Source: Exiguobacterium aurantiacum
Lineage (GTDB): Bacteria; Bacillota; Bacilli; Exiguobacteriales; Exiguobacteriaceae
Length of the DNA: 64,000 nt
NCBI RefSeq assembly: GCF_024362205.1
Contig: NZ_CP101462.1
Span: 896,501 to 960,500, forward strand
Direction: 5' to 3'
Part shown: positions 36,264 to 47,864 of the stretch, in pieces
How the letters are laid out: each line of letters begins with the position of its first letter
Numbering within the stretch: position 1 is the stretch's first letter
Position numbers and translations under genes: made by a program
Notes under the pieces: model-generated
Told to the model about the DNA's origin: nothing
Database searches by the model: none
The model's input: only the letters and a program-made list of their open reading frames with translations

Positions 36264-37592
<1,329 letters not shown>

Positions 37593-37602
37593 TTGATGTT
37601 TT

Positions 37603-37633
37603 CAGGCTCGCCTCATGGCGGGCCTGTTTTTTT
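37603..37633 (+). terminator. Terminator of the glycolytic operon
   Basis: CAGGCTCGCC / GGCGGGCCTG with a TCAT loop and a T8 tail, ten bases after eno. Confidence 0.92.
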
Positions 37634-37686
37634 GTGGGTAGATTAGATGTTCATCAGACGGTGGGACGACTGATTGGTCGTCAACC

Positions 37687-37803
37687 CGTCCTGGCGGCAC
37701 CGATGCTTTCTGCAGGCAATCCACGGAGCCTCCTCGCACTCCGTGCTTGCGGGGTCTCCGTTAGATTGCTTTCCTGCAAGAGTCACGGTACCGCTTGGAC
37801 GGA
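37687..37803. repeat. Long imperfect palindrome, probable dispersed Bacillales intergenic element
   Basis: A nested inverted repeat: GTCCTGGCGGCACCG pairs with CGGTACCGCTTGGAC (outer), TGCAGG with CCTGCA, CAATC with GATTG, CGGAG with CTCCG, around a core CCTCCTCGCACTCCGTGC then TTGCGGGGTCT. The GAGACCCCGCA...CGAGGAGGCTC core with GCAGGA and GCAGAAAGC arms recalls a repeat I have seen between genes in many Bacillaceae genomes; I do not know a formal name. No T run follows, so it is not a simple terminator. The rest of 37634-37892 holds only a possible TATACT -10 at 37852-37857 for the next gene. Confidence 0.7.
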
Positions 37804-37892
37804 CGCGGACGCTCTCTGTCGAGCCTTCGTCATCGACACCTCGTCGTGCTGTATACTGAACTTGTTATGGATGAGGAGTAAGGGGGAGTCAT

Positions 37893-38690
37893 ATGGACCA
37901 ATCGCATGAGCAAGAAAAAAGGTTGAGTGGCGGGAACGTGTCGACCGTCTATAAAAAGGGGAACCACGTCTATCGCACGCAGAAAGAGGGAAGTGCGAAA
38001 GTCCATTGGTTGCTAACGCATTTGGAGGCGAAGGGGATAGCAGGTGTTCCTCGATTTGTCGGAGTTGATGAACAGGGCCGAGAGGTGTTGACGTACCTCG
38101 AAGGCGAGACGGCCGATTATCCGTTGAAAGCCTACATGTGGTCCGATGAGGCGATTCGAGACGCCGCTCGATTGATGCGTCGGCTGCATGACGCGACCGC
38201 GGATGTCGAGTGGCCGTCTGACTGGCAACCGCTCGACGATACGCCAAAACCGTTTGACGTGATTTGCCACAACGACTTCGCCGTCTACAATACGATTTTC
38301 CATGACGGCAAAGTGGCAGGGGTCATCGACTTTGATTTGGCGGCCCCGGGACCACGAGCCTGGGATATCGTCTATGCGCTCTATACGTTCGTCCCGCTCA
38401 GCCGGCGTCATCAAGCCGAGTCGGGAGAAGTCGTCCACTATGAGGCTGAGCGCGATGATGTGATCTATCGAAAACGAGTGACCTTGTTCTTAGAGGCGTA
38501 CGATTGGGAAGGTTCGACTCCGGAGTTGTTGGACATGTTGCTATTGCGGATTGAGGCACTCTATCTGTTAATCGAACGAAAAGCCTCAGAAGGGGACGTT
38601 GCTTTCCAAACGATGATGGATGAAGGACACCACATGCATTATCAAGAAGAATATCGTTTCATCGAGGCGAACGGCAAGAAATGGTTTTGA
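37893..38690 (+). CDS. Aminoglycoside phosphotransferase (APH)-family kinase
   Basis: A 265-residue kinase-fold protein. The catalytic loop CHNDFAVYNTIF carries the HxDxxxxN pattern and DFDLAAPGP the metal-binding aspartate, so it should be active. The N-terminal lobe (LSGGNVSTVYKKGNHVYRT) has a glycine-rich loop. The family includes antibiotic kinases, choline kinase and many of unknown substrate; context gives no clue. GGAGTAAGGGGGAG precedes the ATG. Confidence 0.8.
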   Translation: MDQSHEQEKRLSGGNVSTVYKKGNHVYRTQKEGSAKVHWLLTHLEAKGIAGVPRFVGVDEQGREVLTYLEGETADYPLKAYMWSDEAIRDAARLMRRLHDATADVEWPSDWQPLDDTPKPFDVICHNDFAVYNTIFHDGKVAGVIDFDLAAPGPRAWDIVYALYTFVPLSRRHQAESGEVVHYEAERDDVIYRKRVTLFLEAYDWEGSTPELLDMLLLRIEALYLLIERKASEGDVAFQTMMDEGHHMHYQEEYRFIEANGKKWF

Positions 38691-47468: not shown

Positions 47469-47821
47469 GGGGACGTTATGGATTCGACGGGGGTAGGTCG
47501 GTCGTATGTGGCGTGTCGAGGGGTCGGCCTCGTTAAAACGCAAACGCCTATAACTGGCAAAACTAACACACAACTCGCAGCAGCCTAAGTGCCCTGCGGA
47601 TCCTGACATCCATCGCTTGTGTGGATGATTATCAGGGTCTCAAACTAAGCAAGCTACGCTTCAACCTCGCCGTCTGAGGGCGCGAAGAAGAGATGAATCA
47701 GACTGGATGCGACAACGCCTGTTTATCGGCAGTGTCACATTGAGATTCAATAGATAAACTACACACGTAGAAGCATGCGTTACGATGCCTTCGGACGCGG
47801 GTTCGACTCCCGCCGTCTCCA
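47469..47821 (+). ncRNA. ssrA: Transfer-messenger RNA (tmRNA)
   Basis: A 353-base tmRNA. The tRNA-like ends GGGGACG and CGTCTCC pair, the T arm is GGGTTCGACTCCC, and the 5' consensus GGGGACGTTATGGATTCGAC is present. The resume frame at 47556-47588 encodes GKTNTQLAAA then stop, with the tag alanine first, giving AGKTNTQLAAA. CCA is not encoded. It rescues stalled ribosomes with SmpB and marks products for ClpXP-type proteases. Confidence 0.97.
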
Positions 47822-47864
47822 TTTTTAAACAGTCTGCAACGACTGCAATCAATGATTTTTAATG

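Follow-up and report, generated by a model that had tools for sequence, protein, structure and literature searches.

A palindrome downstream of eno in Exiguobacterium aurantiacum as a probable relic of a mobile hairpin module found in IS1182-family insertion sequences and MITEs

The palindrome at the eno locus

The DNA analyzed here, a 64,000-nt stretch of the Exiguobacterium aurantiacum genome (contig NZ_CP101462.1) referred to below as the window, contains a palindrome with five genes, gap, pgk, tpi, gpmI, and eno, upstream of it. The palindrome lies approximately 60 nt beyond the stem of the eno terminator and ahead of an APH-family gene. The features of the locus are as follows.

36300..37592, plus strand: eno (enolase; Pfam Enolase_C and Enolase_N), the upstream neighbor
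37603..37626, plus strand: intrinsic terminator of eno, a 10-bp stem followed by T7, present as a single copy
37650..37668, strand not assigned: probable remnant of a type-B palindrome, 19 nt, TTCATCAGACGGTGGGACG (a weak assignment made by eye)
37686..37804 (119 nt), motif strand minus: palindromic module with a type-A core, relic copy
37726..37759, minus strand: apical motif (GGAGACCCCGCA ... GAGGAGGCTC), common to the Bacillaceae copies
37893..38690, plus strand: APH-family phosphotransferase gene (Pfam APH), downstream of eno and in tandem with it

The 119 nt form an imperfect palindrome, that is, one long hairpin with conserved bulges. The minus strand reads GTCCGTCC...GACTC...GGAGACCCCGCA...GAGGAGGCTCC...GAAAGC...GGACGG, in which GGAGACCCCGCA...GAGGAGGCTCC on the motif strand, together with the internal loops GACTC and GAAAGC, constitutes the type-A core. 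An earlier note, made from the letters alone, had described a large nested palindrome at this place, and the folding calculations bear this out: the RNA fold of the minus strand reached −66.7 kcal/mol (z −8.0) and the DNA fold a z of −6.9, with 0 of 200 shuffles equally stable in either case, and the plus-strand fold of a wider stretch around the palindrome had a z of −5.1. The core quoted in that note appears in reverse-complement form, with GAGCCTCCTCG occupying 37726-37736 and TGCGGGGTCTCC occupying 37748-37759, each part occurring once without mismatch in the window. The covariance model R1, built on five copies from the same genome, the eno copy among them, gave its sole strong match in the window at 37686..37804 (108.7 bits, E 2.7e-26).

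The palindrome is not a plain terminator, as the earlier note had also held: the eno terminator precedes it; when 37400-38100 was scanned, the palindrome gave no terminator-like site, the upstream eno hairpin being the one that qualified in the intergenic region; and no T run follows the module. In Rfam, there was no match at the gathering threshold and none at E ≤ 10 on the element itself. Elsewhere in the window, Rfam RF00023 identified a tmRNA gene at 47469-47824 (191 bits). With two transposase queries, no IS1182 transposase better than E 3.3 was found in the window; terminal repeats like TTTGTCTACAGTCTGA flanking the eno copy matched at best 10-11 of 16 positions, at several equally good places; and no duplicated hairpin was found around the copy, the eno terminator hairpin not being repeated past the palindrome. 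The eno copy is thus a relic without a transposase, insertion sequence (IS) ends, or a target duplication, and its origin therefore has to be read from its likeness to other copies.

We compared by eye the 3' side of eno across 19 genus genomes. The type-A core was intact in seven (G000, G004, G005, G010, G015, G016, and G018), and a type-B palindrome of the same architecture occupied the site in six others (G006, G007, G008, G011, G014, and G017), in two of which, G007 and G014, its left arm is identical to TTCATCAGACGGTGGGACG. In G013, one arm had been replaced and the other kept; several other genus genomes carried apical deletion forms or fragments; and G002, G003, and G009 had neither type. 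This locus (L090-L109) is a hot spot at which type-A, type-B, deletion, and arm-flipped forms interchange between species. A special tie to the glycolytic operon, next to which the earlier note had seen the element, is not supported, the eno copy being a relic that is intact in 7 of the 19 genomes.

The seven intact copies are 92-98% identical; in 19 of 21 pairs this exceeds the identity at fourfold sites of eno, and in 21 of 21 that of both flanks. In the G018 copy, one apical pair is G-C instead of A-T, a change of both bases. Such conservation exceeds what a dead relic predicts, and it would fit a host-kept structured RNA, the eno copy being a domesticated 3' element or small RNA retained by selection. 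We regard this explanation as improbable: 12 of the 19 genomes have no intact copy; the motif strand runs opposite to eno; and the scan found no promoter-like site at the locus. Furthermore, the similarity of the copies does not track eno divergence (for the pair G015-G016, 0.974 for the element and 0.758 for eno fourfold sites), so constraint and exchange are both possible, and transfer or recombination may explain the identity.

IS1182-family insertion sequences carrying the module

In the E. aurantiacum genome, blastn found five clear copies including the eno copy, to which the other four were 78-80% identical, and all four of these folded (z −4.7 to −7.7). R1 gave 23 rows, one of them the opposite strand of the same place and the weakest with E 0.035, and it matched all 19 genus genomes, this one included. 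Eleven of the copies are near-identical and lie inside near-identical ISs whose transposases are 98-100% alike and belong to the IS1182 family (NCBIfam NF033551, E 1e-146). Five further cores adjoin a second IS1182 subtype with a transposase 43-49% identical. In the second subtype (L012, L014, L030, and L033), the transposase appears in several copies as two overlapping tblastn pieces, perhaps owing to a frameshift, either programmed or by decay.

The limits of the Exiguobacterium IS are CAGATTGTAGACAAA, at the 3' side of the transposase, and TTTGTCTACAGTCTG, past the module. The module sits inside the terminal repeats, in the stretch that separates the outer IS end from the start of the transposase. 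From the outside in, the order is a flanking hairpin, a terminal-repeat terminator with a T run, the module, a TATAAT seen by eye, and the transposase; a promoter scan of this IS found no promoter-like site on either strand, the TATAAT not being scored as a promoter. By eye, the terminal repeat of many of the IS1182 elements listed is likewise an inward-facing intrinsic terminator, and a module, if there is one, stands between this terminator and the transposase.

IS boundaries were read for nine elements, eight from Exiguobacterium and one from Bacillus. In six of the Exiguobacterium ISs (L078-L083), a complete terminator-like hairpin of approximately 22-28 bp was present as a direct repeat at both ends; at L084 and at L349 (E. 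mexicanum plasmid), hairpins abutted both ends, but they differed from each other. The Bacillus IS (L168), whose transposase is 63.6% identical, was flanked by a duplicated 27-bp hairpin, so that whole-hairpin duplication was found in 7 of the 9 ISs inspected. Hairpin direct repeats matching at 19-20 of 20 positions, no more than 480 nt from the core, also bounded six shorter, MITE-like units (L015, L017, L019, L023, L031, and L034) among 41 loci examined over 1.5 kb, several of the others being full ISs with the far end outside that distance. Some units contain two cores in inverted order. Hairpin targets have been published for IS1272 and TnSha1, and in the passages available from these papers, the target hairpin is removed without duplication (PMC5678879, PMC4923244), with whole-hairpin duplication drawn in PMC5678879 as a possible pathway b. 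Our 7 of 9 ISs differ from these reports in showing the outcome of pathway b. The duplication leaves a hairpin on both sides of the IS, whereas for IS1272 the reverse, loss of the hairpin, has been published.

The module is found in a minority of the family. When 299 Bacilli genomes were scanned, 80 exceeded the IS1182 cut-off, and from these we took 30 loci, the best-scoring one per genome; the covariance model R2 detected the module beside the transposase in seven (L321, L322, L326, L330, L331, L340, and L346), five of which were also detected by R1. All seven, from approximately four lineages, have the module upstream of where the transposase begins and antisense to it. L322 has two further copies that are part of the G018 eno locus, and for one of the 23 loci without a visible module, L341, the sequence upstream of the transposase is no longer than about 100 nt. 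The plasmid IS L349 is 98.3% identical to the E. aurantiacum IS on the transposase side and 98.1% at the outer end, yet it has a clean gap of approximately 112 nt exactly at the module site and no R1 match. Palindromes are often deleted, and L349 represents either a deletion of the module or a naturally module-less form. The same IS at 98% identity without the module shows that the IS can lose or lack it, which speaks against the module being strictly required.

The named Staphylococcus relatives, IS1272 and ISSau3 of the IS1182 family, resemble the Exiguobacterium IS in that their annotated copies hold the module in the stretch from the start of the transposase to the end of the IS. No mention of the module occurs in the available passages of the IS1272 and TnSha1 accounts (PMC5678879, PMC4923244). 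Plasmid records with DNA resembling that of L340 numbered 34, all from Staphylococcus. Among 12 loci scanned, mostly R2 matches of one genus, four exceeded the cut-off of Rfam RF02577 (tsr24, an S. aureus small RNA) and three matched more weakly. In the IS1272-like element of prophage phiPV83 (IS 205-2150, transposase 225-1871 on the minus strand), tsr24 covers 1861-2086 on the plus strand with 213 bits and R2 covers 1955-2073 on the plus strand; by these coordinates, tsr24 runs antisense across the leader of the transposase and has its end within the module. The ISSau3 copy on an S. aureus plasmid gave 214 bits, so that both named IS records exceeded the gathering cut-off of 50 on the motif strand. 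By R2 positions, the 3' part of tsr24 (approximately 128-206) corresponds to the module on its motif strand.

The overlap extends to weaker matches: in G155, all six of the best-scored tsr24 matches (of at least six, all below the cut-off) fell inside R2 matches on the same strand. The family cut-off of tsr24 was exceeded in only 8 of 299 Bacilli genomes. No match was found in 14 genus genomes, including that of E. aurantiacum, under strict filters with six candidates scored, and the eno copy lies below the gathering threshold of tsr24 and was absent from the matches at E ≤ 10. The study behind tsr24 was reportedly based on RNA sequencing; a literature search by the name tsr24 returned only unrelated papers. 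A promoter scan of IS1272 found no promoter-like site on the motif strand, which faces outward.

Spread and covariation of the module in the Bacilli

R2 matched 81 of 299 Bacilli genomes, belonging to 26 of 118 genera, in agreement with the earlier claim of a dispersed and widespread family. This class-wide scan scored no more than 10 candidates per genome, so its copy numbers are floors, and a fuller R2 count reached up to 91 copies in one genome. The exact 24-base apical core was found in at least 120 stretches in named genomes; the pattern searched has GCAG and the eno copy GCAA, so the eno copy itself is not a match. Among the 80 core records listed, 73 bore Bacillus-type genus names, one was from Paenibacillus, two were labeled Pseudomonas sp. 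ISL-84, three were Gemmatimonadota metagenome-assembled genomes (MAGs), and one was a Spirochaetaceae MAG. We take the Bacillus-type genera to be Bacillaceae. The phylum-level outliers with the exact apical core are L114 (4277), L169 (337), L186 (5586), and L150 (3396), and in L114 the core is immediately downstream of a putative groEL-like ORF. The outer stems differ in the Gemmatimonadota and Spirochaetaceae copies, for which spread across phyla and MAG contamination are the alternatives.

An IS1182 transposase accompanied 5 of the 80 core loci when the Exiguobacterium query was used, and one more with a second query. A different carrier was found in a Neobacillus genome (G304), which has 77 end motifs: a 184-bp MITE with GGCTGTGTTAAA ends as terminal inverted repeats and no transposase inside, the distance between the ends being mostly 183-187 bp (157-308 overall; L287-L316). 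At the 17 of 30 loci at which both ends, including the right end, were found, the MITEs are flanked by AT-rich 8-bp target duplications, with a mean of 7.24 of 8 flanking bases alike and 8 of 17 perfect. Flank identity across these 17 copies was 90%, compared with 44% when shuffled, and the match occurred at 8 bp and not at 5-6 or 10-11. By our own count, five units, one of them from the same Neobacillus genome, had 6 to 8 of 8 flanking bases alike. An ISL3 transposase, the one family sought as a mover of the MITE, was found in none of 7 genomes, and no full-length partner IS with GGCTGTGTTAAA ends was seen by eye among the 77 end matches in the Neobacillus genome. A plasmid search with the Bacillaceae MITE gave one record, from Cytobacillus firmus. 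The same core thus occurs both in IS1182-family ISs and in MITEs with 8-bp duplications, that is, in two types of transposon. The earlier note had considered the element unexplained in its own right; instead, given the carriers found, the dispersed Bacillales element exists as a module of mobile elements, with named relatives in Staphylococcus, and not as a feature of glycolysis.

To describe the conserved structure, we used an alignment (A4) of 42 copies, the rows of R2, made up of 32 Bacillaceae-type (of 36 candidates passing a motif filter that included GACTCC) and 10 from Exiguobacterium, with none from a Staphylococcus-named record. Its consensus has 32 pairs, 22 of which show changes on both sides. 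There were 132 double-change cells compared with 31.5 after shuffling, a value reached by 0 of 500 shuffles, and 94.5% of cells were paired, compared with 34-51% under sliding; the helices were not a selection criterion. Across the 42 copies, hardly any variation is seen in the apical motif or in the two loops, GACTC and GAAAGC; the apical invariance is partly by choice, because the alignment was picked by an exact apical motif, with GGAGACC a selection criterion for the Bacillaceae rows. A strand test based on G.T and A.C mismatches gave 1 versus 1 in common pairs. The structural conservation claimed by the earlier note is therefore supported, and its reading withstands the objection that it had itself raised, a single copy in this genome without covariation in relatives, since copies are multiple and relatives covary.

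Covariation of this kind might also be mutational, as quasi-palindromes can correct their own arms by template switching, which would require no selection. The arms do differ between subfamilies with pairing kept, and arm-flipped and apically deleted forms occur at eno. Arm correction should, however, erase bulges and mismatches, and almost every one of the 42 copies retains the bulged A of GAGACC and both internal loops, GACTC and GAAAGC (GGAGACC and GACTCC having been partly selected for in the Bacillaceae rows). We therefore judge that the covariation is quite unlikely to have a purely mutational origin.

Among known repeats, the stem-loop families Bhal-1, Bcr1, Sta-1, and others, which are dispersed and intergenic in B. 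halodurans, B. anthracis, and S. aureus, the three named being 74-167 bp long (Petrillo et al. 2008, PMC2267715, as far as that paper was available), resemble the module by description only. The bcr1 repeat of B. cereus is a candidate for comparison. REP sequences, including the GTAG and CGTC repeats, are likewise dispersed bacterial palindromes, with GTAG linked to a transposase. According to the available part of PMC3733652, they are 20-40 bp long with tag motifs, and GTAG repeats go with tyrosine transposases; the module, in contrast, is approximately 120 bp and is carried by DDE IS1182 elements or by MITEs with 8-bp duplications. We rejected identity with REP or CGTC repeats because size and tags differ. 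A search of literature text with the core sequence gave no paper that was relevant by title among those listed, and searches on the repeat, on IS1182 with MITE, terminator, or stem-loop, and on Bacillaceae repeats yielded as useful only the IS1272/TnSha1, stem-loop survey, and REP papers.

Orientation and possible roles of the module

Solo copies avoid divergent gaps (8 of 99, compared with 48 of 270 gaps; p 0.02). When the gap is tandem, the motif strand is co-directional with transcription in 40 cases and opposite in 19 (p 0.009), and the counts rest on crude ORF calling and may include Neobacillus copies twice. From the orientation sets, 6 of 82 elements were set aside as lying in ORFs and 18 as lying at edges, as were 14 of 30 Neobacillus loci and 8 of 44 other loci, which had no clear signature. 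The eno copy belongs to the minority orientation.

Two other roles for the module bear on these observations. The first is at the DNA level: an extruding hairpin recognized, in single- or double-stranded DNA form, by a transposase or a repair nuclease would aid transposition, with any RNA incidental. The good DNA fold, the targeting of hairpins by IS1182-type elements (here and in the available passages of PMC5678879 and PMC4923244), and the presence of the same core in two different transposon types are consistent with this, and the even outcome of the strand test is neutral. However, the module is internal to the terminal repeats, is not seen in 23 of 30 IS1182 elements, and is missing from L349; the fixed polarity with respect to the transposase and the bias with respect to genes would be unexpected for a symmetric DNA signal. 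We consider a DNA-level role unlikely. The second is insulation or termination of transcription: the module would protect the promoter of the transposase against transcription entering from outside, and solo copies would serve as 3' roadblocks. This would accord with the outside-in order in the Exiguobacterium IS and with the avoidance of divergent promoter regions, but no T run follows the module, and a terminal-repeat terminator hairpin is already there, also in module-less ISs (by eye, among those listed). We give this role a low probability.

We consider it probable that the eno palindrome is a relic of a mobile structured hairpin module, for which we infer an antisense RNA role in the IS. 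The module is an internal part of a minority of IS1182-family ISs, in which its motif strand runs counter to the transposase. Full IS copies and MITE-like derivatives beside terminator-like hairpins, mostly with whole-hairpin duplication, have spread it in Exiguobacterium, and a second MITE type with 8-bp target duplications in the Bacillaceae. Within the IS, the module may be transcribed outward as a structured RNA antisense to the transposase leader (in Staphylococcus, the 3' part of tsr24), and this RNA might restrain transposase expression or insulate it against transcription from outside. Insertion directly behind genes, a position in which one more hairpin would do little harm, may be the reason that solo copies persist. 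The eno copy has lost all but the hairpin and is perhaps a remnant that the host tolerates, which may still be of some local use as a hairpin at the 3' side.

A broader proposal, which is possible but which we put forward tentatively, is that the module is a transmissible structured RNA common to unrelated transposons of the Bacilli (hairpin-duplicating IS1182 elements and 8-bp-duplication MITEs), that it would provide an outward antisense RNA on the transposase leader, that tsr24 may be one member, that its apical motif may reach other phyla (the Gemmatimonadota and the Spirochaetaceae MAG), and that copies of the eno type may have been taken over as 3' elements.

The module ties together a dispersed Bacillales palindrome, IS1182 elements that insert at terminators, an abundant Bacillaceae MITE, and tsr24 of S. 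aureus, which are treated apart in the families seen here and in the available parts of the papers. The analysis yields a covariance model with which further copies can be searched for and predicts a motif-strand RNA antisense to the transposase leader. It also provides sequence evidence for whole-hairpin duplication, which in the available part of PMC5678879 is drawn only as a possible pathway. Finally, it gives a warning that, in staphylococci, a small RNA called in many copies can be the end of a transposon.
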